Assembly (NCBI RefSeq): GCF_009674675.1
Contig: NZ_WKJC01000001.1
Location: 682,001-746,000, forward strand
DNA length: 64,000 nt
From: Kangiella sp. HZ709
GTDB taxonomy: Bacteria > Pseudomonadota > Gammaproteobacteria > Enterobacterales > Kangiellaceae
Reading direction: 5' to 3'
The notes under the pieces are model-generated. The model searched no databases. It saw nothing but the letters and a program-made list of their open reading frames with translations, and had not been told where the DNA came from. Made by a program: the position numbers and the translations under genes. This document shows positions 26,206 to 47,796 of this stretch, in pieces. Numbering within the stretch: position 1 is the stretch's first letter; every line of letters begins with the position of its first letter.

Positions 26206-26247
26206 AGATATAAAAAATGCCGCTAAAAAGCGGCATTTTTTATATCT
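26206..26247. terminator. Bidirectional intrinsic terminator (small lipoprotein gene / tRNA-Val)
   Basis: A perfect 18-bp inverted repeat with a 6-base loop. Its core is ATGCCGC / GCGGCAT, with A/T runs on both sides giving U-runs in either direction. On the minus strand it ends tRNA-Val and, because no hairpin was seen between 26324 and 26371, probably also the polysaccharide operon. Confidence 0.92.
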
Positions 26248-26323
26248 GGTAGTCGCGAGTGAATTCGAATCACCGACCCCCACCATGTCAAGGTGGTGCT
26301 CTAACCAGCTGAGCTACGCGACT
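26247..26323 (-). tRNA. tRNA-Val (anticodon GAC)
   Basis: A 77-base cloverleaf with encoded CCA. Acceptor stem AGTCGCG pairs with CGCGACT. The anticodon loop TTGACAT in a CCACC/GGTGG stem gives GAC, and GGTTAGAGC and GATTCGAAT are the D- and T-arm signatures. The D, anticodon and variable regions closely resemble the E. coli valine tRNAs. Confidence 0.97.
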
Positions 26324-27592: not shown

Positions 27593-27593
27593 T

Positions 27594-29225: not shown

Positions 29226-29252
29226 AAAAATATAGGGAGTCAAGCTCCCTAT
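29225..29252 (-). terminator. Terminator-like hairpin inside the polysaccharide operon
   Basis: A perfect 8-bp stem ATAGGGAG / CTCCCTAT with a 5-base loop is followed, after one A, by five Ts on the minus strand. It lies between the bi-domain oxidoreductase stop and the heparinase-fold ATG. It could be a partial terminator, or it could hide the upstream TTG start. Confidence 0.5.
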
Positions 29253-29260
29253 TCCCTTTA

Positions 29261-31366: not shown

Positions 31367-32505
31367 TAGAGTCTATTCTCACAGTGAACAATTGAATTAG
31401 TATCAAGAGCTTCTTTAATTTTTAACACCAGAAGTCCTGTTCCTCGGATGTACTCAAGTGATTCACCTGAAGTATCATTTTTATGTGCATTATATGAATG
31501 TGTAATATTTGCGCTATGACCGTGGTCACGGTGGAATAATTTTCGATATTGCTTTTTGTCTACAATATCCAAACTTAGATTTTCAAAGTCACGTAACGAT
31601 GCAAGTAAGTCCCCTTTATGCACATTGAGGTACTCTCTAACACCTTCAAAAGTATGTCCCTTTGCAGAAAAAGTTAAAGCTGCCTGAGAGCCATCGGCAA
31701 AAGTTATTGATATCGCAAAGTTAGATTTAGCTTCATTAGCAATTGCCGGACTAATAGTACACGGGAAAGCATTTTCTAAACCAACCAAGTGAATACATAA
31801 ATCTGACCAATGACACAAATTGCCCATGACTCTTCCGCCTTCAGCTTCAGAAAAGTACCAATGATTATCGTCGATCTCGTGACCAGCTATAAACCAGTTC
31901 ATCATTATATTGCCTGGCTGCAGCTTTATTTCATGTAAAAGCTTTTCAAACAGCTTACTTTTCGGCCTATTAAAACCCATGAAAACGCGGCTCTCTGGGT
32001 GGGCTAACATTGCTTTTTCCAGCCGAACTAGTTGCTCATAATTAACAATATGAGGTTTTTCTATATGTACATCCTTCCCTTTTTCTATTGCCTGAATAGC
32101 GTATTCAGCATGAGTAGAGTGGTTTGATGCTATGTAAACCACTTTGATACCAGAGTCATTAAGAACTTCATCGTATCTAGCTGTGGCGCAATAAGCACCG
32201 TACTCTTTTGCTAGAGATAAAGCTTTAGCCTTATCGGTATCCAGCGTATATTTAATCTTGCCTTCAGTTTTTTTGCTTACATAATGAGCAATTGTAGAAA
32301 ATGCAAAATTACCACAACCTATTATGGCGACATCTCCGTCTTTGCTACCCTTTTCATTTATCCACCTTTCACCATCAAATGATGGGCTTGCCTTCATATG
32401 GTACTGTGAGCGAACCTTCTTGAAAGTTCTCTCTAAACCATACATTGATACGTACCTAGTAACTTTTTTCAGTTTAAAAAGTAATGGTTCTTTTGTGTAG
32501 TCCAT
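31366..32505 (-). CDS. Gfo/Idh/MocA-family oxidoreductase
   Basis: 379 residues. A Rossmann NAD(P)-binding start is preceded by about 55 extra residues (nucleotide motif VAIIGCGNFAFSTI at about 54-67), followed by YIASNHSTHAEYA and the catalytic-region motif HIEKPHIV, whose Lys is the usual catalytic lysine. These enzymes oxidise, reduce or epimerise sugars. Pairing with the downstream bi-domain enzyme suggests successive steps on one sugar. It follows the GT4 gene by 9 bases. Confidence 0.9.
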   Translation of the reverse strand: MDYTKEPLLFKLKKVTRYVSMYGLERTFKKVRSQYHMKASPSFDGERWINEKGSKDGDVAIIGCGNFAFSTIAHYVSKKTEGKIKYTLDTDKAKALSLAKEYGAYCATARYDEVLNDSGIKVVYIASNHSTHAEYAIQAIEKGKDVHIEKPHIVNYEQLVRLEKAMLAHPESRVFMGFNRPKSKLFEKLLHEIKLQPGNIMMNWFIAGHEIDDNHWYFSEAEGGRVMGNLCHWSDLCIHLVGLENAFPCTISPAIANEAKSNFAISITFADGSQAALTFSAKGHTFEGVREYLNVHKGDLLASLRDFENLSLDIVDKKQYRKLFHRDHGHSANITHSYNAHKNDTSGESLEYIRGTGLLVLKIKEALDTNSIVHCENRL

Positions 32506-32514
32506 CTCGATACC

Positions 32515-33618
32515 TTATAGATTCTTAAATACTTGTATTGTTTCTGCTTTAACTTTTTCCCAACTATAGCTATCTTCAAATAGTGTCCGTGCTTTTTGAC
32601 ACATATCTAAATAACTACTCGGCTCAGAACAGATAGTTGAAATAGTTTCAACGATAGCTTCAGCATCACCGTAAGCTGTAACCACACCGCACCCAACAGA
32701 CTCAACAGGTTGCGAAACCTTAGCTTCGCTATTGATAATAACTGGACGTCCAACAGCAAGGGATTCGGCCAATTTGTTAGGTGCTGCAAAAATATTAATA
32801 ATCCGATGAGGGCTGTAATGGGCAAAAACAAAATCGCACTGCGCTGTTAAATCTAAAACCTGATAGTGATTTAAAAAACCGTGATATATACAATTTTTAT
32901 GCTCGGCTATTTTTGCCATTATATCTGGACTACCTTCACCTGCTATATGAACTTCATAATTATCATTGTTATTAGCTATATCTAATAATGTACCGATCCC
33001 CCTTCCTTCATCCAGCCAACCTGCAAATACAACCTTTATCTTGGAACAGTTTAAGCCGCTATGCTTCTGCTGACCTGGGTCTACAGGTGTGTTTTTAATA
33101 ACCGTTATCTTACTTCGGCAAAACGCGGGTAAAGCATCTGCTCTAAACTGCTCTGGGACTAAAGTTGAGGTAGCATATTTTACAATCAACCCTTCAAAGA
33201 AGTTAAGTATTTTATTAAAAAAAGATGGTAACGGATATCTCTGTCCAAAGTTATCATGGATATTATACAGGGTCGATATTTTATTAAATAGACCATAAAC
33301 GAATACCGCGAAAAAAGACTCCACATCAGAAAAGTGTATAACTTCGGGCCTCTCTTTTTTTAACGTTTTATAGGCCCCTATATTATAGCGAATCACGCCT
33401 TTTAGATAAGTGAATAAGCCAGCGCCATTAAGCATCGGGTAATATTTACCTACACGTTTTACCTTCAGACCATCCCATTCATCTTTTTCATCCAACCCTT
33501 CATCGCGGTAAGCGCCAACGAATAGTGTCTCAAAACCCAACTCTTCGGCAACTAAAGCCATTCGCTTAACCCTGGGGATTGGTTTACTTGAAGTTCTCAG
33601 TAACAAAATTTTTTTCAT
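32515..33618 (-). CDS. Glycosyltransferase family 4
   Basis: 367 residues with the GT-B two-domain pattern: an N-terminal KKILLLRTSSKPIPR start and a C-terminal nucleotide-sugar-binding half with KVVFAGWLDEGRGIGTLLDIA and the NKLAESLAVGRPVI motif around the conserved Glu. It is cytoplasmic or membrane-associated and adds a sugar to the lipid-linked repeat unit; donor and linkage are unknown. Its start overlaps the end of the Wzx-like gene by four bases. Confidence 0.88.
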   Translation of the reverse strand: MKKILLLRTSSKPIPRVKRMALVAEELGFETLFVGAYRDEGLDEKDEWDGLKVKRVGKYYPMLNGAGLFTYLKGVIRYNIGAYKTLKKERPEVIHFSDVESFFAVFVYGLFNKISTLYNIHDNFGQRYPLPSFFNKILNFFEGLIVKYATSTLVPEQFRADALPAFCRSKITVIKNTPVDPGQQKHSGLNCSKIKVVFAGWLDEGRGIGTLLDIANNNDNYEVHIAGEGSPDIMAKIAEHKNCIYHGFLNHYQVLDLTAQCDFVFAHYSPHRIINIFAAPNKLAESLAVGRPVIINSEAKVSQPVESVGCGVVTAYGDAEAIVETISTICSEPSSYLDMCQKARTLFEDSYSWEKVKAETIQVFKNL

Positions 33619-34751
33619 TGCTTTACCTTAAGAGACAACATAGAAAGAAGAAAAACTACTAACGATGTAATCATTATAGATGTATAAATTGTAAAGCCCG
33701 TAAAGTTAAGAGTAAACATTGTAATTATACCCACTAAATACGTGGCTCCTTCCAAGTATGGTTTATTAAACTTATAGAAATTTGCAAATAAAATAGATGA
33801 GAAGAAGAACACACCTACTTTTACTGATTTTAAATATACCTCAGCTAAATCATAACTATAACTGTACAACGCGGTTATTATTGGCAACAGCAAGATATCG
33901 CTAAAATAAAAAAGAATATTGACGGATACAACTATTAAAAGTAACTTCTTGAAACTCTCGCTAATGTTTACTCTTGCTAACTCAATATATGAAGCAAAAA
34001 GAGTATTGAATAAAACACCAAACACTGGCACTAGTGAAAAAGAAACTAAAAATATATTATCGCTTTCACTTCCCACATCGACTAACCACCTTGGTAGAAC
34101 GACTAAAAATGCACAAAGACTGGCTGAAATAGAGAAAGGGAAAAGGATCTTGATTCTACTCTTATAACCATTGAAAAGTTTCTTTTCAGTGACTCTTGGA
34201 AATTTATAGTAGAAAGTAAAAGTAACTACTAAAAGAAATATTATGGAGGACACGCCAATCAAATACCATACATATGACTCATTAAGGCCCACAAAATAAT
34301 AAAGGCTAGTCATTAAAGCTAAAAGCAGCATAAACCGTACAAAACTTAGTTTAAAAAAACTGCGAGCACCTTTTTTAAAACCATAAGTATGATTAAAATA
34401 GCCATACAAGTAATCAAGCAAGGACTCACTTAGCTTGATAGTGATGGAAAAAAAAGCAACATAAAAAGCCACTTCATAATACTTCAAAAGCATTAAAGAG
34501 AGGGCTGATGCAACAACAACATTTTTTAGTCTAAATTTTATGTCGCCTCTAATGTCATTACCTATTGGCCCATAAATATTTACATATTGCCTTTGCGCCA
34601 TGTATGAAACTGAAAAAAGCACACTGACAATAGCAAATGACTGGGATAATAAAGCGGCCAAACTTAAGTTTGTTAAAGAAAGTAGCTGTATAACCAACAC
34701 AGGTAAAAATGCCAAGCAGGCCTGCCCGACAAAAGCACTTAATCTACTCAT
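33615..34751 (-). CDS. Polytopic membrane protein, probable polysaccharide flippase (Wzx-like)
   Basis: 378 residues with about ten hydrophobic segments throughout, few charged residues and no soluble domain. The pattern and the position directly after a polymerase-like gene fit a Wzx/MATE-type flippase moving the undecaprenyl-linked repeat across the inner membrane. It is shorter than most Wzx proteins, and I see no diagnostic motif, so the call is by topology and context. The region looks more AT-rich than its flanks, which is common for serotype-specific wzx/wzy genes. Confidence 0.65.
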   Translation of the reverse strand: MSRLSAFVGQACLAFLPVLVIQLLSLTNLSLAALLSQSFAIVSVLFSVSYMAQRQYVNIYGPIGNDIRGDIKFRLKNVVVASALSLMLLKYYEVAFYVAFFSITIKLSESLLDYLYGYFNHTYGFKKGARSFFKLSFVRFMLLLALMTSLYYFVGLNESYVWYLIGVSSIIFLLVVTFTFYYKFPRVTEKKLFNGYKSRIKILFPFSISASLCAFLVVLPRWLVDVGSESDNIFLVSFSLVPVFGVLFNTLFASYIELARVNISESFKKLLLIVVSVNILFYFSDILLLPIITALYSYSYDLAEVYLKSVKVGVFFFSSILFANFYKFNKPYLEGATYLVGIITMFTLNFTGFTIYTSIMITSLVVFLLSMLSLKVKQ

Positions 34752-34814
34752 AGATACCTTATTATTTTAATACTTAAATAAACGTTATATTCAGTCGGCT
34801 CTAGTTTAACTTGC

Positions 34815-36098
34815 TTAGCATTCATGTTTATGATTCTGCTTCCTAATTATTAGAAGGTTATATAAGGCATAAAAGACAATCAAAAGCCCTCCATTCAAAA
34901 GAAATAAGTAAAAAGAATAATTGAATGGCATATAACAGAACACAACTATAAAAATTGATACTGAAAAAGGATTAGGTTTAGAAATTATCATTCTTTGCAA
35001 AAAACTTAAAAATATAAATGCCAACGCTGGAACAATTACGAGACCGCCGTAGCCTGCATTTACATAGATATCTAAAGGAGCTCCGAGTACAGCGTTTCCC
35101 TGTTTTGAGCCGCCTAGTAAAGAGTGGAACTGATTTGAAAAACCTTCCTGTGTTCCTGGTAATAAAATGGACAAATCGGATAACCACAAACTAAAAGGGT
35201 CTAGATCAATATTCTGCAAATAATCTATTAAGTGTACATTTTCGCCAGGCACCGTCGTGAATATACGAGTAGTAATATTTAATATCAGATCAATAAATGA
35301 CTCCAACAAGCCACTATCTTCATTTGTTCGCCCTAATAATAAATTTATGCCAAATAAAATAAATAGCAACGCTACAAAAAAGATAACAATGTATTTACTA
35401 GAGATGCTTTTACCGATTGACTTATACTTAAAATAAAAGCCTAATGCTGTAGATATGAACAAAACTAAAATGGGCATTCTCTGCCCACCCATTACCATAG
35501 AGAATAAAATAACAGCGAACACAACAAATACATACTTATACCTGTTGGGACTGTTAAAGCAAAGTGTCAACCAAACAATAAAAGCTGGCGCATAAATATC
35601 TCTTATCTGCTTTATTAAACCAGGTGCAAAATAACCAGCTTCACCGGAAGAAATTGTTTTTCTTATATCAAGAAGAGCAAAGGCTCCTGCAAAGTGTCCT
35701 TGTACAATCCTTGTGTACACTAAGTAAACAAAAGCCAAATTAATTAACAACAAGAAAACAGTGGAAAAATTTGCAAAGGTTTTGTTTTTACTTTCTAAAC
35801 TAGAAAGACTAAAAATTTTCAGCCCTGAATTTGAGACGTTTCTTGCTATAGCCCAAATAAAAAAGACCGCAATAAAATTTATTATTGAAATTTCCAATAA
35901 AAGCAGCTCAGAATCTTGCATGGATATTGAGCAAAGAAGGAATGCGCCAATAGTGTATATAGCAATGCCAATAAAGTAAGAGTCATAAAGAAAAATGCCT
36001 TTATTTGTCGTTTTGATTATTACCAGAATAGCAAGAACTATAATCGTTAGTATAATTGCACTAACAAGCAAGAACAAAAATAAGTTACTTGATAACAA
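34815..36098 (-). CDS. Polytopic membrane protein, probable repeat-unit polymerase (Wzy-like)
   Basis: 427 residues with about 11-12 hydrophobic segments and a larger loop in the second half (about 265-340, containing TTRIFTTVPGENVHLIDYLQ), the layout of O-antigen/capsule polymerases. Wzy proteins share little sequence, so topology and context are the basis. The start is a TTG overlapping the previous gene's end by 14 bases; no closer ATG exists without losing the first membrane segment. A 63-base gap separates it from the flippase-like gene. Confidence 0.68.
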   Translation of the reverse strand: MLSSNLFLFLLVSAIILTIIVLAILVIIKTTNKGIFLYDSYFIGIAIYTIGAFLLCSISMQDSELLLLEISIINFIAVFFIWAIARNVSNSGLKIFSLSSLESKNKTFANFSTVFLLLINLAFVYLVYTRIVQGHFAGAFALLDIRKTISSGEAGYFAPGLIKQIRDIYAPAFIVWLTLCFNSPNRYKYVFVVFAVILFSMVMGGQRMPILVLFISTALGFYFKYKSIGKSISSKYIVIFFVALLFILFGINLLLGRTNEDSGLLESFIDLILNITTRIFTTVPGENVHLIDYLQNIDLDPFSLWLSDLSILLPGTQEGFSNQFHSLLGGSKQGNAVLGAPLDIYVNAGYGGLVIVPALAFIFLSFLQRMIISKPNPFSVSIFIVVFCYMPFNYSFYLFLLNGGLLIVFYALYNLLIIRKQNHKHEC

Positions 36099-37848
36099 AA
36101 TCCAGGCTGCCTTCGTTTTTCAAATTTAACATTAGCTTATTTAATTCAGTACCAGATTTATTGCCGTAATCTTCTATCAAACAGCTTTGTTCTTTCTTAA
36201 TATTATCTAAATTCAAAATATCACTTTCGGCATATGGACTTAGATATAGTGTAAATAACAAACCTTTTTCGGCCTTCCAACTATCGTGAATGGTTAAACC
36301 CGCCTCGGTTAAACAAAAGCGTCTTTGATGAGTAATATCTCTATCTTTATAAAGTAAAGATACACTACTAAGCTCTTGCTCTAGTAAGCTACACTCTCCC
36401 ATTTCTACAGTTCTGAAAACTGAGCCGCTTTTAAAATCAGCTCGTGTTCCTGAATTGTTCATTATCACATTATGTGATAATGAACTTAAATATTCCTCTC
36501 TCAGCCTAATATCTGATGTGTAAGGCGCACAACCTCTCTCCAAAACAATATCGTCACCGCCCTTAAACAACCAGAAAGAAAGCATATCATCATGATCATG
36601 TGGGGCTCGCTCCTTCAAGCCAGCTTTTCCGTATCTAATAACGGCTTTATAGGAATCTTTTGTCATTATTAGAAAAGGATAAAGCTCTTGGAAAGGTTTC
36701 TGACTTGGCTCTTCCGTTAGTTTTGGTATAGCTCTCATCCCTATTTGCTCAAGCACTGCGGAATAAATTGTATGAGCGGTTTCCTTTGACCTCCAATCAA
36801 AATATAAGTTACAACTACGAGAAGACTGTCCAAAATTTAATACTTGCCCACTATCTGAATCACCAAAAATTGGTAGTAAACCCTTTTTACTCGATATTAA
36901 AGAAAGAGAATTAACTAAACGATTTATCCGTTCACTAACTTCTTTTTCCATATCGTCAAAACTGATAAATAAATATCCTATTACAGCCAAGTCAACACAT
37001 AATCGATGATACACAGTGCTATATTCTAACTGTACTCCATCATTTGGAAATTGTTGAATAAGCAATTCATTAAAAACCTTCTCTGAATAACTTTGCTGTT
37101 TTAAATAACTAACAACAATTTTACCCACTTCAGTAGCCAAATAATGATTACCAGGGATATCACTAATTTCTGGATATAGCTCCAGATAAACATCATGTTT
37201 TGCAATTAACTGTTCTAATAAAGAATTCAAGTCATGATGTTCGTTAGCTTTAACTAAAAGGTATACAAAAGCGAGATTCACTAACCGAATAGCCACCTCC
37301 ATTGAACTAATCCAGTTAACGCCTTTTAAAAATGTATTTTGGTCACTCCATAGCTTTAAATGACTATAAACATCATTTATATCCCACTCACCATTTGTGC
37401 AAAGTAAAGCTTTTTCTACCAACCATTGTAAACGACTTTTTTCCCAAGGAACTTTTACATCGCAAGTTATGTTCGACAAAACAAAGTCGATATCAAACGA
37501 ATTGGCGTTAGAATTCCACTTATAGTCATGAATAGAATCATAGTGAAATGTCTCATCTGACTGTATATCCACATTACCATATCCTAAACAAGGATAACCT
37601 TTATCTTTATAAGCATTAACTCTTGTCAGTAAATAAGACAATTGCTCATTACTTAATACTGGGTTAATAGAAGAACTTTGTTTGCTTTGAAGCGAAATTT
37701 CAGCCTTATTTAGTTTTGCTTTTAATAAAGCGCTTCCAGCACGATATAAAACTTTCTTGTTAAGCTCGACATTAATCTTCTTTAATAAAAAATCAAAGGG
37801 CGACTCTGTCACCCTTTTCACTAAATACTTAACCCTAGAGATATTCAC
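36085..37848 (-). CDS. Heparinase II/III-family protein (second copy, polysaccharide-lyase fold)
   Basis: 587 residues, with helical toroid motifs (WISSMEVAIRLVNLAFVYLL, IPGNHYLATEVGKIV) and then the beta domain with RAPHDHDDMLSFWLFKGGDD, the equivalent of the family's HxHxD block. Little similarity to the other heparinase-fold gene in the operon is evident outside the motifs, so they are paralogues with probably different specificity. No signal peptide is apparent. It has a GTG start with GGGA 7 bases upstream, and lies between wecC and the polymerase-like gene. Confidence 0.85.
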   Translation of the reverse strand: MNISRVKYLVKRVTESPFDFLLKKINVELNKKVLYRAGSALLKAKLNKAEISLQSKQSSSINPVLSNEQLSYLLTRVNAYKDKGYPCLGYGNVDIQSDETFHYDSIHDYKWNSNANSFDIDFVLSNITCDVKVPWEKSRLQWLVEKALLCTNGEWDINDVYSHLKLWSDQNTFLKGVNWISSMEVAIRLVNLAFVYLLVKANEHHDLNSLLEQLIAKHDVYLELYPEISDIPGNHYLATEVGKIVVSYLKQQSYSEKVFNELLIQQFPNDGVQLEYSTVYHRLCVDLAVIGYLFISFDDMEKEVSERINRLVNSLSLISSKKGLLPIFGDSDSGQVLNFGQSSRSCNLYFDWRSKETAHTIYSAVLEQIGMRAIPKLTEEPSQKPFQELYPFLIMTKDSYKAVIRYGKAGLKERAPHDHDDMLSFWLFKGGDDIVLERGCAPYTSDIRLREEYLSSLSHNVIMNNSGTRADFKSGSVFRTVEMGECSLLEQELSSVSLLYKDRDITHQRRFCLTEAGLTIHDSWKAEKGLLFTLYLSPYAESDILNLDNIKKEQSCLIEDYGNKSGTELNKLMLNLKNEGSLDFVIK

Positions 37849-37869
37849 TCATTAATCCCGATTGTACTA

Positions 37870-39132
37870 TTACCAGATACCTTTTGTATCAATTATAAAA
37901 TCTATGTTAGGCCGGTCAATTTCTTTAAACTCTTTATGATCTACCAACATTACAGCTATATCAGCTATTTGCTCTGATTCCTGTATATTAGATAGCACAA
38001 ATTTCTCATTAACATTTAAGTTATCTATATTTGGCTCTACCGCAATAACTTTACCAACATGTAACTCTGAAAGTTTACGTGTAATTGACATAGCAGGACT
38101 TTCGCGAAGATCATCTATATCAGGTTTAAACGCGAGACCAAAACAAGCAATAATAACATCAGCTGCACTTTTGCTTGGGTTTTTAAGTAAAAAATCAGCA
38201 ATAGCAAGCTTTACTTTATTAATTACCCAGTCAGGTTTTGTATCGTTAATTCTCCGTGCGGTATGAATAATTTGTGCTTCTGATGGAGTTTTGCTTACGA
38301 TAAACCATGGGTCTACTGCAATGCAATGGCCCCCAACTCCAGGACCTGGTTGTAAGATATTTATCCTAGGGTGTCGGTTAGCAAGAGAAATTAGTTCCCA
38401 CACATTAATATCTAATTTATCACAAATAATAGAAAGTTCATTTGCAAAAGCTATTTGCACATCTCGACACGAATTTTCAGTTAGTTTTGCCATTTCAGCA
38501 GTACGCGCATTGGTAGTTACACACTCACCCTCAACAAAAATTTTATACAGCTCAATAGCTCTGCTGGAGCACTGGGCCGTCATTCCACCTATTACGCGAT
38601 CATTTTCAACTAACTCGCGAACAACATGACCAGGCAAGACACGCTCAGGACAGTGAGCAACATTGATATCTGCATCCTCACCTTTATGCTGGGGAAAAGA
38701 AAGGTCCTCTCTAGCAACAGCTAACCACTCTGCCATTTGTTCTGTTGCACCCACTGGCGAAGTTGATTCTAGAATAACTAGGTCACCTTTTTTCAATACA
38801 GGGGCAATAGCATTAGCAGCTGATCGAATATAGCTTAAATCAGGCTCAGGAATTTCACTGTTAGAATCTTTAAAAGGCGTTGGAACGGCGATTAAAAAGG
38901 CATCAGCTGGCTCAGGTTGAGTTATAGCCTTTAGATAACCTTCTGTGACTGCTACATGAACAATCATGTCAAGCTGAGGTTCAACAATATGAATTTCACC
39001 TCTATTAATTGTATCAACTGCATGCTGATTAACATCAACACCAACAACTTGCTTTTTACGTGAAGCAAACATAGCTGCTGTTGGTAAGCCTATATAGCCA
39101 AGTCCGATTACGGAAATAGTGTTAAATGACAT
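37870..39132 (-). CDS. wecC: UDP-N-acetyl-D-mannosamine dehydrogenase
   Basis: Oxidises UDP-ManNAc twice with NAD to UDP-ManNAcA in the cytoplasm. It has 420 residues: the nucleotide motif GLGYIGLPTA (10-19), the catalytic Cys270 in GVGGHCIAVDPWF, and the three-domain UDP-sugar dehydrogenase order. ManNAc rather than glucose specificity is inferred from overall resemblance to WecC and from wecB next to it (10-base gap). Confidence 0.93.
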   Translation of the reverse strand: MSFNTISVIGLGYIGLPTAAMFASRKKQVVGVDVNQHAVDTINRGEIHIVEPQLDMIVHVAVTEGYLKAITQPEPADAFLIAVPTPFKDSNSEIPEPDLSYIRSAANAIAPVLKKGDLVILESTSPVGATEQMAEWLAVAREDLSFPQHKGEDADINVAHCPERVLPGHVVRELVENDRVIGGMTAQCSSRAIELYKIFVEGECVTTNARTAEMAKLTENSCRDVQIAFANELSIICDKLDINVWELISLANRHPRINILQPGPGVGGHCIAVDPWFIVSKTPSEAQIIHTARRINDTKPDWVINKVKLAIADFLLKNPSKSAADVIIACFGLAFKPDIDDLRESPAMSITRKLSELHVGKVIAVEPNIDNLNVNEKFVLSNIQESEQIADIAVMLVDHKEFKEIDRPNIDFIIDTKGIW

Positions 39133-39142
39133 TAGAGATTCC

Positions 39143-40264
39143 TTAAAATTTATTTGCTAGCGCATTCAATATTCTTTCACAAGCTTTGCCATCACCGTAC
39201 GGATTATGTGCATAGCTCATTTTGTTATATTCATCTTGTGATGTTAACAAAGCATCCAGTGCATCCCTTATAAGACTCGTATCTGTTCCAACAAGCTTTA
39301 CAGTTCCGGCTTCGACAGCCTCAGGCCTTTCTGTGGTATCCCTCATAACTAGAACTGGTTTACCTAGACTAGGAGCTTCTTCCTGAATGCCGCCAGAGTC
39401 TGTTAAGATAATATAAGAACGATTCATCAAATAAATGAAAGGCAAGTACTGCTGAGGTTCAATTAATTTAATATTGTCAACGCCCTCTAAAATACGGTTT
39501 ACGGGCTCTTGAACATTAGGGTTAAGATGTACAGGATAAACTATTTGAATATCCTCATGCTTTTTAGCAGCATCAACCAACGCTTCACAGATTCGTTCAA
39601 AACCACCACCAAAACTTTCTCTACGGTGTCCCGTAACAAGTATCAATTTTTTATTTTTATCTAAAAAAGGAAATTTCTCAGCCAGCTCTGAAGATAGCAC
39701 AGTATCATTATCAAGCTTATCTTTTATCATGAACAATGCATCAATTACTGTATTGCCTGTAACAATGATTGATTCATTATCATAGTTTTCATTTACTAAA
39801 TTATTCTTACTCGTGTCTGTAGGAGCAAAATGAAATTGAGTGATAGCACCTGTCAATTTACGGTTAGCCTCTTCTGGCCAAGGAGAATATATATTCCCGG
39901 TTCTAAGGCCCGCCTCTACGTGACCAACCGCAACTTGCTCATAATAAGAAGCCAAGCTGGCAGCAAAGGTTGTAGCTGTATCACCATGTACCAGTACTAT
40001 ATCTGGCTTAAACTCTTTTAGTACCGGAGTAAGCTCTAGTAATATTCTAGATGTGACCTCCGGTAGGGTTTGTCCTGCTTTCATAAGGTCAAGGTCATAA
40101 TCTGGAGTTATTTCAAAAAGCTCCAAAACTTGATCCAACATTTCTCGATGTTGTGCTGTTACACATACTTTTGCATTAAACCGCTTATCATTAGCAAAAG
40201 CATGAACTAAAGGCGCCATTTTAATAGCTTCGGGACGCGTGCCGAAGACTGTTAAGACTTTCAT
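39143..40264 (-). CDS. wecB: UDP-N-acetylglucosamine 2-epimerase (non-hydrolysing)
   Basis: Interconverts UDP-GlcNAc and UDP-ManNAc in the cytoplasm. It has 373 residues: start motif [15 protein letters not shown] (6-20), HGDT (93-96), HVEAGLRTG with the conserved Glu117, [11 protein letters not shown] and the C-terminal [20 protein letters not shown] segment. It feeds wecC downstream and is preceded by wecA. Confidence 0.96.
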
Positions 40265-40273
40265 AGGAAGTAT

Positions 40274-41293
40274 TTATTTCTTTTTAAACCTGTGTCGGAG
40301 GGATAATAAGTAGTTATAGATAAAAAATGTTAGACTTATCATGATAAGGCTCAAATACTCAGGTAACTCTTGAACTGTCATGACGTAACCTATAAAACAA
40401 AAAGCCAAACTAATGATAGATATAAATATAAGAGCTTGTCTTGAGTTTAAACCGATATCCATAAATACATGGTGCAAGTGCTCTCGATCAGCAACCAAAG
40501 GGGATTGGCCACGTCGTAATCGCCTAAACATAACCGCCAACATATCTATTAGAGGAACGGCAATAAACCATAAAGCATGCGCTGGTGGTATCAAAGACTG
40601 TCCCTCGGGTTGACTAAACACAATCAGTAACCAAGAAACAGTTAGCCCAAGCATCATACTTCCAGCATCTCCCATAAAAACTTTATTTTTGTTGGTAAAA
40701 AAACTTAAATTAAAAAACAAGAAAACCACTATTGCAGCAGACATCGCTCCAGTAAGTAATATAAAGTCAGGGCTTTTAATTAGGAGACCTATGGCTATTA
40801 AACTAATGAGCGCTAATGTGCCTGCTAGACCATCAATACCATCGGTCATATTAAATGCATTAATCCCTGCAACAATTGCAAGTATTGAGATAACTCCAGA
40901 TAAAGAGCCCGTCATTATCACTCCAGAGCCAAACAAATCCCCGAGAGAAGCGATATGTATTCCTGTACCAAAAACCAAGATTGAAGCTATTAATATTTGA
41001 GCAACGAGTCTTATTTTTGCACTTAAGTCATAACGATCATCTAAAGCACCAATTAAGACAATTAGGGATACAGATACTAAAATCAAATTAATATGTTGGC
41101 TACTTTCCAGATATAAACTGACAGATGTCATTGTTGCAAGGTAAATTGCCAACCCGCCAACCAAAGGAACATTGCCTGTGTGCTTTTTGCGATTATCTGG
41201 CGTATCTACCAAGCCCCAATTTACAGCTATTGGTCTTAATGCCAAAACAGCAAAAAAACATACAACTGTAGCAACCATCCAACTTATATGCAT
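40274..41293 (-). CDS. wecA: Undecaprenyl-phosphate N-acetylhexosamine-1-phosphate transferase (WecA-type)
   Basis: An integral membrane enzyme of the MraY/WecA family that starts the lipid-linked glycan by moving a sugar-1-phosphate, usually GlcNAc-1-P, onto undecaprenyl phosphate. It has 339 residues and about ten membrane segments. Signature motifs are DDRYDL (about 86-91), AFNMTDGIDGLAG (about 147-159), the MGDAGSMMLG loop (about 207-216) and the HLHHVFMDIGL segment near the C-terminal third. The exact sugar is inferred. Confidence 0.9.
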   Translation of the reverse strand: MHISWMVATVVCFFAVLALRPIAVNWGLVDTPDNRKKHTGNVPLVGGLAIYLATMTSVSLYLESSQHINLILVSVSLIVLIGALDDRYDLSAKIRLVAQILIASILVFGTGIHIASLGDLFGSGVIMTGSLSGVISILAIVAGINAFNMTDGIDGLAGTLALISLIAIGLLIKSPDFILLTGAMSAAIVVFLFFNLSFFTNKNKVFMGDAGSMMLGLTVSWLLIVFSQPEGQSLIPPAHALWFIAVPLIDMLAVMFRRLRRGQSPLVADREHLHHVFMDIGLNSRQALIFISIISLAFCFIGYVMTVQELPEYLSLIMISLTFFIYNYLLSLRHRFKKK

Positions 41294-41306
41294 AAATCCA
41301 ATCCTT

Positions 41307-42266
41307 CTACTTTTTGCTATCCTTAAAGTAATTTAGCATTAATACTAACAAAACTGATAAGAAAAGCCCCAAAACAAAGCCTAGTACAACTATTAATGCT
41401 CTTTTTGGCTTAACCTTCTCTTCTGGTACTTTTGCACTACTTACTGTCTTAAAAATATACTCGTCTGAAACTTGTGCTAGCATTTTTGTTTTATGTTGCT
41501 CTTGAATCAGCTCACTAAAGACTGTTCTAATTTCAGCAATTGATGTTTGACTGATTTGTTTCTCCAAATATTCAATACTTTGATTGGCATCATTAAGTGC
41601 GCGTACTTTCATAAAGTTGTTAAGGTCTTGAATTATTAAGTCTGTCCATTGTTTTGCGATTATCGGAGAATAGTGAGTTATAGCGATATTGATCAATCCC
41701 GACTCTTTATCTTTACTTATACTTAAGCGCTTTTTAAACTCTTCATATAACTCCCAGCTTGTAGGCTCTACAGTTTTACCTTTAGGTGCTTTGCGGACCC
41801 ACTTATGTTCGGCTTCGTTATATAGACCTTGATCGTAAACTAATTCATTAGTTGATTGTTCCCATTTGGTAGCTGCAAATAATGGAATTGCCAAGTTATG
41901 TTTGCTAATAAAATTTTCAACAAAGCCCCAACTTTTCATAACTTCCATGGCAATAACAGCATCAGTTGACTCATTTCCACCAATGTTGATCCCTGCTAAA
42001 GAAGCGAGACCTCCAAACTGTCCAGCCAATGAAGCCAATTTCCCGCCGCTACCACTACTGTTATTAGGTTGAACTACAGCTGAAGCTTTATACTCATTGG
42101 GTAAGTATAAGGCCAATGCTACAGACGCCATTGTACAAAATAGTGTTATTGCAATGACGATCCATTTACCCTTCAAAATAATAGAAAATAGCTCTCTCAA
42201 ATCAATTTCATCATCTTGATAAGACTGCTGGGCTTGATTGAAAGGTTTATTGTATTCGTTATTCAT
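41307..42266 (-). CDS. Wzz-family chain-length determinant protein, no kinase domain
   Basis: 319 residues. Two membrane segments (about 33-55 and 288-312) bracket a periplasmic domain, the polysaccharide co-polymerase layout, with the Pro-rich VPEEKVKPKRALI before the second segment. A Gly/Ser-rich stretch at about 70-96 is unusual. It sets polymer length together with the polymerase. No tyrosine-kinase (Wzc C-terminal) domain is present here or elsewhere in the window. Confidence 0.9.
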   Translation of the reverse strand: MNNEYNKPFNQAQQSYQDDEIDLRELFSIILKGKWIVIAITLFCTMASVALALYLPNEYKASAVVQPNNSSGSGGKLASLAGQFGGLASLAGINIGGNESTDAVIAMEVMKSWGFVENFISKHNLAIPLFAATKWEQSTNELVYDQGLYNEAEHKWVRKAPKGKTVEPTSWELYEEFKKRLSISKDKESGLINIAITHYSPIIAKQWTDLIIQDLNNFMKVRALNDANQSIEYLEKQISQTSIAEIRTVFSELIQEQHKTKMLAQVSDEYIFKTVSSAKVPEEKVKPKRALIVVLGFVLGLFLSVLLVLMLNYFKDSKK

Positions 42267-42276
42267 GGATAGTTTG

Positions 42277-43725
42277 TTAAATCTCCATAGTCAAAGACAA
42301 ACTAAGATTATATTTGTCTTTTTGGTTGCCGAAACTGTCGACAGTTTCATTTTTTGCTTCGATTTGCAGTCCAATCAACCCATACTTTGTGGGCTTTTGA
42401 TATTGAAGCTCAAATTGATTAAAGTTGATATTTCGATTATTGATGCTATGGATGCCAAAGCCGTCACTATTTAAATCAATTTTAGCTAAACGAAATTTAT
42501 AACGGTCACCATTTTTATGGGTAACTAATAATCCGAACGCCAAACTTTGCGTATCATTATCATAAGTAGAGCCTATACTTCGCCCATCCGTACGATAGCC
42601 TGTTTGATAAATACTATTATTGTATGTCACATTTGGGGCAAATTCATTTTCAGAATCTGCGTACTCTAAATAAGACTTTATAAAATATTCGCCAAAGAAA
42701 AAATTTCTGCTATAACCGAATTGATAAACTTTTCTTGAAGGTAAATAACCAGCCTCATCCTCGCCAATCAGCTGTCCATATACTGAGCCTAATTTATTTG
42801 GTAAGCGCCATTTAAAATCTACTCCAGCCAACTGATTCCCCGGCTCATTACTCCTATCCGAGCCGCAGCCGCCAGATAATTCATCACAGTTATCCCTTCC
42901 GATTAGTAAATCAAAAAAATTACCCAGATCATTAGGTCTCCCTTGACCAGCCCATTGAGCAGTTCTTCTCAACACAATTTCCAAAGAGTCTATGGGCTTA
43001 AAATTAACACTCATTCCTAATAGTTTTGCATGGGGAATAAAACGGTCACTTTCTAACTGCCCCGCAAACGCATTGAAAGTCCATGGGCCGATCCAGGACA
43101 GCCATTCGCTTTCAAATGGATCTGAGTAATTTCTTTGGACAGAGATTGCTGGAACGGGCCTTGCATTATTCGAAAGTATTAAAGAAGAATCCCAGCCAGG
43201 ACCCCACCACCTTTCTTGAGCTCCAAGCGAGACAACCCAATTACCCCAGATACCTGCAACGTAAGAGTTATCTAAGCGTTGTTCTTCTCCATCTATAGGG
43301 TCTAGTGTTCGAGTAGCTTCAATATTCCAAGCAAAGTTTTTCCTAACACCCGTAGTCTTAGAAGTGATTTCAGCTTTTTCGCGTCTATCATCACCAAAGT
43401 GACGTAAGATTTTTCCTTGATTACCTGCTTTTAAACTCAAGTAGCTGTGCGTATCTAGCTTGGTTTCAAATCGACCTTTACGTTTTACCCGCTTAAAAAC
43501 TCTTAGTTGAGCTTCAGTTAGGTTATCAACATTAGCATTATTCAAATCATTTAGAATTGGTGCCCACATTAACGGCCATGTAGAAACAGGGACTCTAATA
43601 ACTCCAATATCCGATAAATATTCAATATCAGCTCGAAGCCAAGCATCACGAGTATCAAGCCAAGGCTCAGATTTAATCTGACCTGTTAGCAAAAGCAATA
43701 ATGTAATAACTAGAAATTTATTCAT
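42277..43725 (-). CDS. Capsule assembly Wzi-family outer-membrane protein
   Basis: 482 residues with a signal peptide at 1-19 and a beta-barrel-like pattern of alternating strands to the C-terminus. Segments such as EPWLDTRDAWLRADIEYLSDIGVI and NWVVSLGAQERWWGPGWDSSLILSNNARPVP are characteristic of the Wzi family. Wzi binds capsule polymer at the cell surface, so the operon product is at least partly surface-retained (inference). Its ATG overlaps the upstream SLBB-gene stop by one base. Confidence 0.93.
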   Translation of the reverse strand: MNKFLVITLLLLLTGQIKSEPWLDTRDAWLRADIEYLSDIGVIRVPVSTWPLMWAPILNDLNNANVDNLTEAQLRVFKRVKRKGRFETKLDTHSYLSLKAGNQGKILRHFGDDRREKAEITSKTTGVRKNFAWNIEATRTLDPIDGEEQRLDNSYVAGIWGNWVVSLGAQERWWGPGWDSSLILSNNARPVPAISVQRNYSDPFESEWLSWIGPWTFNAFAGQLESDRFIPHAKLLGMSVNFKPIDSLEIVLRRTAQWAGQGRPNDLGNFFDLLIGRDNCDELSGGCGSDRSNEPGNQLAGVDFKWRLPNKLGSVYGQLIGEDEAGYLPSRKVYQFGYSRNFFFGEYFIKSYLEYADSENEFAPNVTYNNSIYQTGYRTDGRSIGSTYDNDTQSLAFGLLVTHKNGDRYKFRLAKIDLNSDGFGIHSINNRNINFNQFELQYQKPTKYGLIGLQIEAKNETVDSFGNQKDKYNLSLSLTMEI

Positions 43726-46328
43726 TAGAAACTATTTACCGCCGCGGCACCTAAAGCTAGCTGATAAACAATAGAGCTTACTTTCGACCAAAGCTCTAAA
43801 TTATCCACACGAGAAGTATCCAGAGGAACAACAATTGTATCTCCAGCTTCCATATTAAAATCTGAATGATTTAACCAATTATTTGCATTCGGTAAAACAA
43901 CAGAACCATCTGCTTTAACAATATAAATAGCATCAGAATTAGAAGTTTCTTTTTCACCACCACTCCTTTCAATATAATCATCAAAATCTAATTTTCTATC
44001 GTATAAGTGGGAGGTAGGAACCTGTACTTCACCAACAACCGTGACCTCCTGGCGATGGCTAGGAATAAATAAAGAATCGCCATCTTTTAATGCCACATCT
44101 TCTATATTACCCTCAAGTAAACCTGGAAGATTAACTACTAAACGACCGGTTGCTTCTGTAGTATCCAGAACATCAATCAAAGACTGAGCAGATGCACCAC
44201 TTGTAGATTTACCTATATTAGTATTTTCTAGCTCTGCTGTAGCAATATCTTGTCGCAACCTTTCCTTTAACTTTCGAAGTTCTTTTTCTTCGTATTCACG
44301 TAACTCTTTTCTAGAAAAAACCGCAGCTTTTAATGATCCATATTGATTAATTCCACCAGCTCTTTCAATTAATTGAGTTAAAGTTTCCCCTCGTTGGATT
44401 CTGTATGTGCCAGGAAATTTTACTTCACCAGAAATTTCAACATTTGAGAAGTCTCGGTATTCAGGAGTAACTTTTATTTGCAACTGGTCATGAGGTTGCA
44501 GCTTATAACTTACAGCTCCTAGAAATTCTTGCTGTAGATCTATAGTGATATGATTAATCTTTGCTTCTAAGGGATCATTTAAGTCATACCGAGTTACTTC
44601 TGCCTCGATGGCATAGGCTGATTCAACTAAACCACCTGCAGCATGGATTAAATCTACTGAAGTCATTTCTAAGGTTAGCGGGTATTCTCCAGGAAACTTC
44701 ACTGCCCCAGATATAGTCACCACTTGTGCTGGCAAGTTTAAATTAGACTGAGCTTGAAGCTGAGTTACAATATTCGCGATATATTCATTCCTAATTTCGA
44801 TGGCCACTTCATCTTTATTAATTTTGACGTTTTTTGCTTGCTGCGAGATATTCTTTGCTTGACTTAATTCTTTTTGCTCAAGCTGAATTTGCTTGATTTT
44901 TTCTTCAGTCGCTAATTCATCAACAGCATTACTCAATACAATAATCACATCACGAGGCTGCAATAATATATTTTCATCAGCGCTCTTATCATTGAATATT
45001 TCTAATAAACTTACTTTTAATGGCATAAGAGCTTTGGTATTTTCTTTTTCTCGTATCAATAATGCAAAATTTAAATTAGCATTAGCCTTCAATACATTTG
45101 CTGACGGTATTACGTCTGAAACTCGAATACCTTGTTTCCAACTCTGCATTCCGCCACGATAAACATGCCCCTTAAGCTCAACAATATTCTCTTGCTTCTC
45201 AAGAACAGGATAAATTTTAATCAAGTCTCCATTGCGAACTTTTTGATTCTTTCCCTGACTAACCTTTAGGTTAACATCAACCACTGTCATAGAACCATTA
45301 GCATCAACTCTTTGCACTCGGGTTGCTTCTTCTGCCGCATTAGGTAATAAGCCACCAGCTAAAGCCACCAATTCAGCTATTGTGTGCTCATTCTTTAACT
45401 CATAAATAGCTGGGCGAACAACCTCGCCAGAAACCGAAGCAGTCTTTTTTACTGAAGGTATGAATATGACATCTCCGGCTTGTAAACGACGGTCACGGCG
45501 AGTATCACCCTTTAACAACAGATCATATAAATCGATGGTACTAATCAACTGACCATTCCGTTTAAGTTGAATATTTCGTAAAGAGCCAATTTCTTTGATG
45601 CCGCCACTAACATAAAGCGCATTTAAAATAGTAGATAACGACGATACGGTATAAGCTCCTGGCTTATATGCCTCACCCAGTACAAAAACTTGAATAGAAC
45701 GCAGCTCACCCATCGAAATATTGGCTTGAACACCAATGATTTGCTCTTGGATTTGACTGTTTACATTATTCTTTAGTTCTGTATAACTCAGCCCCGCCAC
45801 ATAGATAGGACCTAGATTAGGAAATTGAATTGCTCCTTGTCTACCTACTTGCAATTCATAACTTGAGTTTTCCTTACCGTAAAGCTGCACTTTAACCATA
45901 TCTCCTGGACCAACAATATAGTTAGCCGGTACAGGAATGTTGCCAACAGGTGTATAAGTTGTCGGCTCACCAGCAAATAAGTCATAGCCAAACTTTTTTA
46001 AAGGCTGATCGACTTTTGCTAGTTGTTCATTGGTTTTTTGAAGCTTGTTTTTCTTTAAGCCAATCGAGTTCTCGCCTTGAGTGCTTCGAGGTAAAACTGC
46101 TGGCGTCTGTACGTCCAATAAAGTTTTATCGGTATCAGTTTGCTGCTTAAGGGATGCACATAAAGAATCCACATCATAGCCTGCAGCTCTAGCAGCTTGC
46201 CTTTGCGCTTCAGTTGCGCCTTCACATAATCGTTTAGCTTGTGATAAATCTGGACTATTAGCTATCACAAACTGTGACGATATGGTAATCGCTAATATGG
46301 TGATTTTTATTAAACACTTCATTGTCAT
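43725..46328 (-). CDS. SLBB-domain polysaccharide export protein (large Wza-like)
   Basis: 867 residues, about twice the size of E. coli Wza. The signal peptide ends around residue 24. A polysaccharide export (Poly_export) domain at about 130-200 contains YIVGPGDMVKVQLYG. At least four SLBB-type repeats follow (for instance the segments starting RSIQVFVLGEAYKPG, KTASVSGEVVRP, QVVTISGAVKFPGEY and SNVEISGEVKFPGTY), with a Lys/Glu-rich coiled-coil insert near about 690-720. It should form the periplasmic/outer-membrane export channel. No lipobox cysteine is obvious, unlike classical Wza. Confidence 0.92.
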   Translation of the reverse strand: MTMKCLIKITILAITISSQFVIANSPDLSQAKRLCEGATEAQRQAARAAGYDVDSLCASLKQQTDTDKTLLDVQTPAVLPRSTQGENSIGLKKNKLQKTNEQLAKVDQPLKKFGYDLFAGEPTTYTPVGNIPVPANYIVGPGDMVKVQLYGKENSSYELQVGRQGAIQFPNLGPIYVAGLSYTELKNNVNSQIQEQIIGVQANISMGELRSIQVFVLGEAYKPGAYTVSSLSTILNALYVSGGIKEIGSLRNIQLKRNGQLISTIDLYDLLLKGDTRRDRRLQAGDVIFIPSVKKTASVSGEVVRPAIYELKNEHTIAELVALAGGLLPNAAEEATRVQRVDANGSMTVVDVNLKVSQGKNQKVRNGDLIKIYPVLEKQENIVELKGHVYRGGMQSWKQGIRVSDVIPSANVLKANANLNFALLIREKENTKALMPLKVSLLEIFNDKSADENILLQPRDVIIVLSNAVDELATEEKIKQIQLEQKELSQAKNISQQAKNVKINKDEVAIEIRNEYIANIVTQLQAQSNLNLPAQVVTISGAVKFPGEYPLTLEMTSVDLIHAAGGLVESAYAIEAEVTRYDLNDPLEAKINHITIDLQQEFLGAVSYKLQPHDQLQIKVTPEYRDFSNVEISGEVKFPGTYRIQRGETLTQLIERAGGINQYGSLKAAVFSRKELREYEEKELRKLKERLRQDIATAELENTNIGKSTSGASAQSLIDVLDTTEATGRLVVNLPGLLEGNIEDVALKDGDSLFIPSHRQEVTVVGEVQVPTSHLYDRKLDFDDYIERSGGEKETSNSDAIYIVKADGSVVLPNANNWLNHSDFNMEAGDTIVVPLDTSRVDNLELWSKVSSIVYQLALGAAAVNSF

Positions 46329-46335
46329 TCTACCC

Positions 46336-47133
46336 CTAAAACCCTTTCACTATAAAATACGGATTGAGTAATGATTCTTTTTGGTTGTACATTAATTCTT
46401 TATTGGTTTCATAATTTAGGCATTCACCGCCAGCATATTTTACGACAGCATGAGCCGCTGCAGTATCCCACTCAGAAGTAGGTCCTAATCTAGGATAAAT
46501 ATCTGCTTTGCCTTCAGCAATAAGACAAAGCTTTAAAGATGATCCCATTGAAGCTAACTCATAAGGTTCAAGTTGCTGTATATAACTCTTAAATTCCTGA
46601 GATTGATGAGAGCGGCTACCCATAACCTTTAAAACCGTACCTGTAAAATTCTTTTTTACTTGAATACTGAAACACTCATCATTACTCTGCTGCTTCCAAG
46701 AACCCATTTCTTGAGCGCCATAATAGCAAGTTTCTAACACTGGTGCATACACTACTCCAAGAATGGGAACGCCATCAGAGATTAGCGCGATATTTACCGT
46801 AAACTCGCCATTCTTCTTAATAAACTCTTTAGTTCCATCCAGCGGATCAATTAACCAGTACTTATTCCATTTTGAGCGTACTTCCCATTCAATATCACAG
46901 GACTCTTCTGAGATGATTGGGATATCAGGGGTAAGACTTTTTAACTTACTGCAAATTAATTTATGCGAAGCGAGGTCCGCTTCAGTCAATGGAGAAGAGT
47001 CTGATTTAGTTTCAACAGAGAAATCTTGCTGATAAATATTTAAAATCTCTTTACCTGCAGACTTTGAAATTGCAATTACTTCTGTAAGAAGTAATTGGAT
47101 ATGAGGCGAAGATGCTGAGCTTTTCAAATCCAT
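46336..47133 (-). CDS. cysQ: 3'(2'),5'-bisphosphate nucleotidase
   Basis: Hydrolyses PAP, the by-product of PAPS-using reactions, to AMP. It has 265 residues. The inositol-monophosphatase-superfamily metal site is complete: ISEES (74-78), IDPLDGTKEF (95-104) and EWDTAAAHAV (221-230). It is the first gene of the polysaccharide operon, directly after the ops element, 7 bases before the export gene, so it is expressed with glycan synthesis although no sulfotransferase is visible. Confidence 0.94.
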   Translation of the reverse strand: MDLKSSASSPHIQLLLTEVIAISKSAGKEILNIYQQDFSVETKSDSSPLTEADLASHKLICSKLKSLTPDIPIISEESCDIEWEVRSKWNKYWLIDPLDGTKEFIKKNGEFTVNIALISDGVPILGVVYAPVLETCYYGAQEMGSWKQQSNDECFSIQVKKNFTGTVLKVMGSRSHQSQEFKSYIQQLEPYELASMGSSLKLCLIAEGKADIYPRLGPTSEWDTAAAHAVVKYAGGECLNYETNKELMYNQKESLLNPYFIVKGF

Positions 47134-47150
47134 CGTTATTATAGTTTAAG

Positions 47151-47163
47151 GTACGCTACCGCC
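47151..47163 (-). promoter_or_regulatory. ops element (RfaH recruitment site) in a JUMPstart-like leader
   Basis: The minus strand reads GGCGGTAGCGTAC, containing the full conserved ops core GGCGGTAG-x2-T. Flanking bases (AAG before, CTTAAACTAT after) resemble JUMPstart leaders. It begins about 60 bases after the predicted transcription start and ends 17 bases before the cysQ ATG, the right place to load RfaH on polymerase. rfaH itself is the adjacent gene. Confidence 0.9.
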
Positions 47164-47229
47164 CTTAGGTTATGGCTCCCAAATGCCCAAGTAGAAATGC
47201 ATATTACGATGCACGCAAATTTTTCGATT

Positions 47230-47258
47230 ATTATAGAGGGTTATAGATCCATATGAAA
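47230..47258 (-). promoter_or_regulatory. Candidate promoter of the polysaccharide operon
   Basis: On the minus strand a perfect -10 TATAAT (47230-47235) lies 17 bases after a weak -35 TTTCAT. A TTGACA further upstream (47279-47284) is too far to pair with it. Transcription would start near 47223. Confidence 0.45.
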
Positions 47259-47292
47259 CCTAACTTCTGTCATAAATTTGTCAAATAAGCAT

Positions 47293-47796
47293 TTATTTTT
47301 CAACTTTCATGACATCTTGGTTGGCGACTTCAAGTTTGATGGTTTTACTAAGGATATTCAACAGGATAATTGAGCGCTCTTCATCACTAGGGGATTGGTA
47401 AATACCTTCAAATTCCTTAAAGGCACCCTTAGTGATAATAACCTTATCCCCTTCTCGTGGAGCATTGGTTTCGAGCATATTACTATCAATAATTCCAGTA
47501 TCAAACTTCAACTGCTGGACCAGCTGCTCAGGGACTTTAGCAACATCAATGCCAAACCTTACAAAGTCTCTCACACCTCGAGTAGAACGTATTTTGCTCC
47601 AATTAATATCCTCATCATCTAGTTTGATAAAAATGTAATTGCTGAATAATGGCTCATTGACCATTTGACGCCTTCCTCTAACTATTTTTTCTAACTCAAT
47701 AGTTGGGTAGAAACACTCTACATCTTGATTTTCCAGATTTTCCTTAGCCCTTAATTGCTGCTTAGGTTTGGCTTGAATAAGATACCAGTAGCTCAC
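47293..47796 (-). CDS. rfaH: Transcription antitermination factor RfaH
   Basis: A NusG paralogue that binds RNA polymerase paused at ops and suppresses termination over long surface-polysaccharide operons, also recruiting ribosomes. It has 167 residues: NusG N-terminal domain (1-100) with LEKIVRGRR (36-43 region) and EPLFSNYIF (48-56), linker, and C-terminal KOW domain with GDKVIITKGAFKEFEG (117-131). The match to E. coli RfaH, including TRGVRDFVRFG, is clear and better than to NusG. GTG start overlapping the MlaC-like stop. Its target ops lies about 130 bases downstream. Confidence 0.97.
   Translation of the reverse strand: MSYWYLIQAKPKQQLRAKENLENQDVECFYPTIELEKIVRGRRQMVNEPLFSNYIFIKLDDEDINWSKIRSTRGVRDFVRFGIDVAKVPEQLVQQLKFDTGIIDSNMLETNAPREGDKVIITKGAFKEFEGIYQSPSDEERSIILLNILSKTIKLEVANQDVMKVEK

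Follow-up and report, generated by a model that had tools for sequence, protein, structure and literature searches.

In the window, i.e., the whole 64,000-nucleotide stretch of the Kangiella sp. HZ709 genome analyzed here, the gene of the anti-terminator RfaH lies directly ahead of an ops element and a long polysaccharide operon, all on the minus strand, and this adjacency of rfaH and ops is kept across the genus and recurs often in several further families of the order and the class. The locus is best explained as a cis-organized RfaH–ops regulon of a single operon, that is, ordinary ops-dependent control by RfaH of the neighboring operon, a reading to which we assign a probability of roughly 0.85. 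In such a regulon, RfaH recruited at ops would exclude NusG and Rho, and would aid translation along the 21 kb of the operon. That all 15 genes of the operon depend on RfaH may reasonably be predicted, and is likely.

The rfaH–ops locus and its protein

Read along the minus strand, the left flank of the locus consists of uvrB (48440-50434) and an mlaC-like gene (47793-48443), which overlap by 4 nt, and the end of the latter overlaps by 4 nt, in turn, with rfaH (47796-47293), which has a GTG start and encodes 167 amino acids. The stop codon of rfaH is followed by a gap of 129 nt, the ops element GGCGGTAGCGTAC (47163-47151), which is an exact 13-mer and the sole exact copy in the window, a spacer of 17 nt, and cysQ (46336..47133, with its ATG at 47133), the first gene of the operon, which is recognized by TIGR01331 at 329.1 bits (cut-off 228.8). 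The initial annotation had placed the 13-base element in the operon leader, 17 bases ahead of cysQ, with rfaH ending some 130 bases upstream, and these coordinates agree with the present measurements. The rest of the operon, delimited by its open reading frames and gaps, comprises 14 ORFs (26372..46328), and all 15 ORFs from 47133 to 26372 lie on the minus strand, with a largest intergenic gap of 63 nt. The 14 ORFs are named as SLBB/polysaccharide export, Wzi, Wzz, a GT4 glycosyltransferase, WecB/WecC-like, polymerase/flippase-like, glycosyltransferases, oxidoreductases, and others; five have Pfam support, and the other names are putative readings of the sequence. A link to the SOS response through uvrB was considered and rejected: three CTG-N10-CAG sites, the E. 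coli-type LexA/SOS box, are present in the window, none of them near uvrB, and this box may not be the one used by the LexA of the host. No clear Shine-Dalgarno sequence is present in the 17-nt spacer ahead of cysQ (47134-47150), and such a sequence is frequently missing in RfaH-controlled operons (PMC13015549).

The exact 11-mer GGCGGTAGCGT has one site in the 2.41-Mb genome, the one described here, and its reversed control has three matches, so the count is uninformative and it is the position that carries the significance. The genome scan proposed along with the initial annotation does not discriminate either when run with the degenerate pattern GGCGGTAGNNT, which is not enriched (13 sites, versus 25 for the reversed control). 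A second match to this pattern in the window (25114-25124) lies within an ORF on the opposite strand, and is probably due to chance. The ops site is above chance through its placement, being exact, situated within a JUMPstart match in a polysaccharide operon leader, and conserved behind rfaH.

The JUMPstart match (RF01707, 47182-47153) has an E-value of 3.7e-5 in a search of 601 bases, and its 31.7 bits miss the gathering threshold of 35; a scan of the whole window against Rfam at the gathering thresholds recovers five tRNAs and no JUMPstart. Of the 18 congeners with an RF01707 match behind rfaH, 17 score between 36.0 and 47.7 bits, and the nearest relative (G011) also scores 31.7, so that the site may be regarded as JUMPstart-like through homology with its congeners, rather than through its own score. 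It is the single RF01707 match in this genome at E-values up to 1, and the stem that lies directly upstream of GGCGGTAGCGT in RF01707 is present in the window (helix S2 below, with two G-U pairs). A search of plasmids with the leader returned zero matches.

The protein is a member of the RfaH family, scoring 190.7 bits against the NCBIfam equivalog TIGR01955 (cut-off 144.5) and 197.2 bits against NF006534 (cut-off 124). The nearest solved structures are those of E. coli RfaH (E 1.9e-40), and this is the one RfaH of the genome over the cut-off, the runner-up being NusG-like, at 53.9 bits. A search of genome contigs for related loci recovered one relative (L074), whose RfaH is 88% identical. Both R138 and L142 take part in the interdomain lock of RfaH. 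In the numbering of the E. coli protein, the RfaH of the window retains K10, R16, Q24, E48, F56, T72, R73, R138, and L142, and differs by H20N, R23N, T68K, N70R, I93V, F130Y, and the replacement of the HTT motif by NWS. The DNA contacts are made by K10, R16, T72, and R73, and E48 belongs to the interdomain lock (PMC5995543, PMC2871177, PMC7593976, PMC13015549); the residues of autoinhibition are kept at E48, R138, and L142, and changed by I93V and F130Y. The Rho-binding loop of NusG (I164-F165-G166), with the roles given in PMC7593976, is lost, and I-L-S is found at RfaH positions 145-147.

The side chains that contact ops are those of K10, H20, R23, and R73 (PMC5995543), of which K10 and R73 are kept and H20 and R23 are both replaced by Asn; the mutant H20A is strongly defective, and R23A mildly so (PMC2871177). 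The element is unchanged beside N20/N23 proteins in 18 of the 19 congeners, which suggests that the Asn pair still reads ops, or that another residue substitutes for it. The AlphaFold2 model of the RfaH of the window, made from two sequences (its own and that of one relative), has a mean pLDDT of 49, with about 25-45 in the C-terminal region, which is too poor to judge the fold and autoinhibition of the KOW domain.

Conservation in Kangiella and in other families

Among 20 Kangiella genomes, that of the window included, an RfaH over the cut-off is found in 19, the exception being a genome that is 55% complete. All 19 loci have ops behind rfaH, 129-184 nt past its stop codon, in exact form in 18 and as GGCGGTAGCAT in the other (L023), and all share the order mlaC-like gene, rfaH, TATAAT, ops, and cysQ, preceded by uvrB in 17 (the 1.5-kb flanks of L024 and L026 show no uvrB). 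The proximity of regulator and target, noted in the initial annotation, is thus maintained in the relatives of this genome, rather than being peculiar to it, and the proposed comparison across related genomes recovers ops in all 19 Kangiella loci. Of the 14 congener stretches fetched, eleven begin at rfaH, and these contain cysQ and wzi in all cases (11/11) and slbb and wzz in most (9/11), followed by differing genes, so that rfaH marks the start of a locus whose content varies.

At the other end of the operon, a tRNA-Val(GAC) gene (26247-26323) lies on the same strand, 48 nt past the last polysaccharide gene. Two of the three relatives checked (G011, L082, and G010, L077) also have it downstream in the same orientation, but the stretch from G018 (L085) does not; this gene may mark the right-hand limit of the variable locus. 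In G010 (L232) and G018 (L233), a second JUMPstart-like match, with the changed ops core AGCGGTAGCTT, follows rfaH in the same orientation at a distance of 24-28 kb, and perhaps represents a second operon with an altered ops.

Beyond the genus, a census of 79 rfaH loci was compiled from a class sample (41 loci, all of the matches except the window) and from family and order samples (38 loci, about one per genus outside the family of the window, with second copies dropped); it leaves out the window and its congeners, and many of its stretches are short where contigs end. The exact 11-mer is found on the same strand within 6 kb downstream of rfaH in 34 of the 79 loci, versus two loci with a site upstream on the same strand (within 2 kb), two antisense, and five for the reversed control, in approximately 409 kb of downstream and 152 kb of upstream sequence. 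The other 45 loci lack an exact downstream ops, in part through contig ends, and the exact pattern overlooks variants such as GGCGGAAGCGT, found behind rfaH in L043. None of the nine loci with the HTT motif has a downstream ops, as against 34 of the 70 others, in 31 of which it lies within 1.5 kb. In L182 (G045), the exact 11-mer is antisense, approximately 1.2 kb before the start of rfaH, i.e., divergent from it. In the same census, with relatedness ignored, R73 occurs without R23 in 31 loci, R23 without R73 in 27, both in 16, and neither in five, so that the two ops-contacting arginines look partly interchangeable.

In a sample of 197 genomes of the order (rfaH at E-values up to 1e-30, RF01707 at up to 1e-3, with stricter filters), 40 of the 97 rfaH genes among the matches listed are followed within 2 kb by a JUMPstart match on the same strand, and one has it in another orientation. 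The adjacency is mostly all-or-none per family, being found in 14/14, 11/12, 5/5, 4/7, 3/3, 2/2, and 1/1 of the loci in seven families, and in none of those in four others (0/12, 0/12, 0/11, and 0/8) or in seven small families taken together (0/10). In 31 of the 40 adjacent loci, the JUMPstart match is the only one in the genome at these thresholds. The genome G050 (family f15) has 15 JUMPstart matches at E-values up to 1 (ten at 1e-3), one of them behind rfaH, and would appear to combine cis and trans targets.

Crossing helices in the leader RNA

The RNA upstream of ops (47164..47187, minus strand) is marked out by its RF01707 match and by covariation. The Rfam model as printed shares with it the stem immediately upstream of ops and has this one stem of 5 bp (S2, alignment columns 20-24/34-38), whereas in the present alignments a second helix, supported by covariation (S1, columns 14-16/26-28), crosses it. 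In the window, S1 pairs 47187-47185 (GGC) with 47176-47174 (GCC), in a register shifted by one relative to the alignment, and S2 pairs 47183-47178 (UUUGGG) with 47169-47164 (CCUAAG), including two G-U pairs. The JUMPstart leader apparently forms an H-type pseudoknot, if both of these helices form at once. The loops (2-3, 1, and 3-5 nt, with the first being 1-2 nt in the window) would just permit both helices simultaneously, and two alternating hairpins would yield the same covariation.

The first set of leaders (34 sequences) consists of 18 of the 19 Kangiella leaders (L031 was left out, its stretch being identical to that of L027) and all 16 of the family and order census loci with a downstream match. 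In this set, 93.0% of the cells of S1 and S2 pair, versus at most 61.7% when the helices are slid, and for S1 alone, 95.1% pair, versus at most 52.9%. The cell counts in shuffle tests can be inflated by relatedness alone, and in these terms S1 and S2 have 32 double-changed cells, versus 8.4 in shuffles, and S1 alone has seven, versus 1.7 (reached by 0/500 shuffles in both cases); the number of S1 pairs with a double change is matched by 73/500. The second set (37 leaders from 50 loci, after the removal of seven duplicates and six loci without the anchor motif, and with a few weak matches) is biased in that all but L234 were found with the Rfam model, the consensus of which already holds CAGC and GCUG. 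Here, 87.4% of the cells of S1 and S2 pair (at most 54.2% when slid), and 86.5% of those of S1 alone (at most 62.9%), with eight double-changed cells, versus 2.6 (0/500); the S1 pairs with a double change are reached by 342/500 shuffles and the pair types by 179/500, and S1 slid by -1 has nine double-changed cells, versus eight in register.

Mutual information calculated without any assumed structure over all 71 leaders places column pairs 24-34 (S2), 14-28 (S1), and 20-38 (S2) as the top three of 1225. Against a phylogeny-aware null of 150 alignments, in which the substitutions of each branch are replayed at random columns, in the manner of R-scape, on a tree drawn from the same short alignment, the values for 24-34 and 14-28 lie above all of the null maxima and that for 20-38 does not (39/150 reach it). 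One pair of S1 and one of S2 are thus individually significant, and the other S1 pairs are near-invariant or non-significant.

A full-text search of the literature found no description of a pseudoknot in JUMPstart, its scope being the text of papers rather than early leader drawings, the additional file of Weinberg, or the Rfam web annotation, any of which may note one, and no paper with both RfaH and a pseudoknot is among the matches listed. A conserved stem-loop among JUMPstart elements is described in PMC2864571, by title the one paper on bacterial leaders among those listed, of which the passages on pseudoknots concern other motifs, and the word JUMPstart is absent from PMC11001881, a recent structural paper on ops complexes.

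Given that S2 ends 0-2 nt before G1 of ops, it lies 11-13 nt before U11, at which the polymerase pauses (PMC11001881). The spacing of the hairpin is 11 nt for the his pause, with 11-13 nt being common (PMC10268239), and the distance from S2 to U11 is, by analogy, that of a pause hairpin. The helix of the his leader likewise ends at such a distance before the 3' end of the pause (PMC10268239), whereas the helix here belongs to a putative pseudoknot and is found at a pause for which a backtracked (PMC7797061) or a pre-translocated (PMC11001881) state has been described. In the class-level leaders (17 of the 18 loci with a downstream match, with L164, at 2.8 kb, being left out), a different hairpin ends no more than 1 nt before ops in 14 of the 17, versus 34% of shuffles, so that a helix abutting ops seems to be general, and its sequence not. 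The energies of these hairpins are mostly unremarkable (3/17 below a z of -2), and the argument is thus carried by position and covariation. Several leaders from outside the order (L139, L145-L148, L151, and L175) have a distinct hairpin, with UGCGG and CUGCA as its arms, which is spaced in the same way directly ahead of ops.

A function for the pseudoknot may be proposed tentatively, at somewhat less than even odds. As the polymerase reaches ops, the JUMPstart pseudoknot would complete its folding where the RNA emerges from the exit channel, 11-13 nt behind the 3' end, and would form, together with the ops DNA hairpin, a two-part landing signal. The knotted RNA would keep the pause in register and prevent the polymerase from sliding back during the loading of RfaH. 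Several families of the Gammaproteobacteria would have this signal fused to its own rfaH as a one-operon anti-termination module.

The predicted operon start, alternative readings, and related systems

The initial annotation also predicted a promoter just past the rfaH stop codon, and proposed that read-through from rfaH could link the transcription of the regulator to ops. The predicted promoter (47230..47258, minus strand) has a TATAAT (47235-47230) with a weak -35-like sequence (TTTCAT/TTCATA) 16-17 nt upstream, and is the sole promoter-like site listed in the rfaH–ops gap, with a score of 10/12. The scan of the region as a whole is not above chance, with eight promoter-like sites versus 12.4 in shuffles, and the prediction relies on the conservation of TATAAT, which is present in all 19 Kangiella gaps, against 2.37 expected by mononucleotide shuffling. 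Its distance to ops is 72-97 nt in 18 gaps and larger in L040. This conservation suggests that the operon has a promoter of its own downstream of rfaH. A terminator-like site was looked for between rfaH and ops and none was found, so that read-through can occur, and it is possible, but not required. It is unlikely that this read-through is a regulatory loop, in which much of the transcription of the operon starts upstream of rfaH and crosses ops, and the RfaH translated from this transcript governs its continuation into the operon. The missing terminator and the end-to-end overlap of uvrB, the mlaC-like gene, and rfaH, through which the rfaH transcript may start far upstream, are in keeping with such a loop, whereas the conserved TATAAT argues for a separate start of the operon, and RfaH recruited at ops cannot raise the transcription of rfaH, because ops lies downstream of this gene.

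The cis-organized regulon is supported by the equivalog score, the contact and lock residues that are kept, the exact ops within a JUMPstart, the adjacency in all 19 Kangiella loci, and the 34 of 79 census loci with a downstream site. Points that count against it are H20N, R23N, T68K, N70R, and NWS for HTT, the sub-threshold JUMPstart score, and the 45 census loci without an exact downstream ops. Some of these points would fit a monomorphic, constitutively active RfaH that acts in cis without ops, with the element being a relic or a mere pause. A 2026 preprint (PMC13015549), which distinguishes metamorphic RfaHs (trans-acting and ops-dependent) from monomorphic ones (cis-acting and ops-independent), reports the latter beside long operons and without a few of the ops-binding residues; the RfaH of the window likewise has H20 and R23 replaced, and its gene adjoins the operon. 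This alternative is nonetheless improbable, as E48, R138, and L142 are kept, 17 of 212 metamorphic RfaHs also adjoin operons (PMC13015549, Table 1), and the leader around ops has diverged among the 19 Kangiella loci while ops itself has stayed exact in 18 of them, which is unexpected for a relic. It is more improbable still that the adjacency is incidental, with rfaH placed by history and serving mainly unlinked targets, as in E. coli. The second JUMPstart-like matches of G010 and G018, the one mixed family of the order sample (4/7), and the several families without adjacency lean in this direction, but the genome has no second exact ops and one RF01707 match at E-values up to 1, and the adjacency is fixed or nearly so in some families (14/14, 11/12, 5/5, and 3/3) and absent in others (0/11, 0/12, 0/12, and 0/8).

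The RfaH of E. coli is the textbook example of a trans-acting anti-terminator recruited by ops. Its gene is unlinked to its targets and serves several operons (PMC7593976), and the systems share the RfaH family protein, the exact ops, the JUMPstart-type leader, and a long polysaccharide operon; here, in contrast, there is one exact ops in the genome, 129 nt behind rfaH, and H20, R23, and HTT differ. The CL7 RfaHs of Shewanella, UpxY of Bacteroides, TaA of Myxococcus, and the plasmid-borne NusG paralogs (PMC7593976) resemble the present case in that the paralog is encoded within its established or presumed target operon, or next to it. The recruitment of paralogs encoded in their operons is called unknown in that paper, whereas in the window a canonical ops separates the regulator gene from the operon. 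The monomorphic RfaHs of Idiomarina and Pseudidiomarina are also encoded next to a long envelope operon, and are reported as active without ops and predicted to be beta-only (PMC13015549), whereas the RfaH of the window keeps E48, R138, and L142, with a perfect ops behind it. A cis-acting RfaH is thus already known, and what is new is the family-wide order of rfaH, promoter, JUMPstart, and operon, with the main interdomain residues kept; no description of such an arrangement beyond PMC7593976 and PMC13015549 was found among the matches listed in a literature search. The cis-acting RfaHs have been proposed to be independent of ops (PMC13015549), and the family-wide combination of a cis location with a canonical ops and these residues implies that ops dependence and cis organization need not be alternatives.

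With the regulator gene at the head of a polysaccharide locus in which the sugar genes vary among species, one dedicated anti-terminator would serve whichever cassette lies behind it. The adjacency of rfaH and ops predicts, cheaply, the operon controlled by each such RfaH. The crossing helix in the landing signal is the more surprising part of the finding, and its covariation would give a definite structure to the long-known JUMPstart RNA, along with a role at the ops pause that can be tested.
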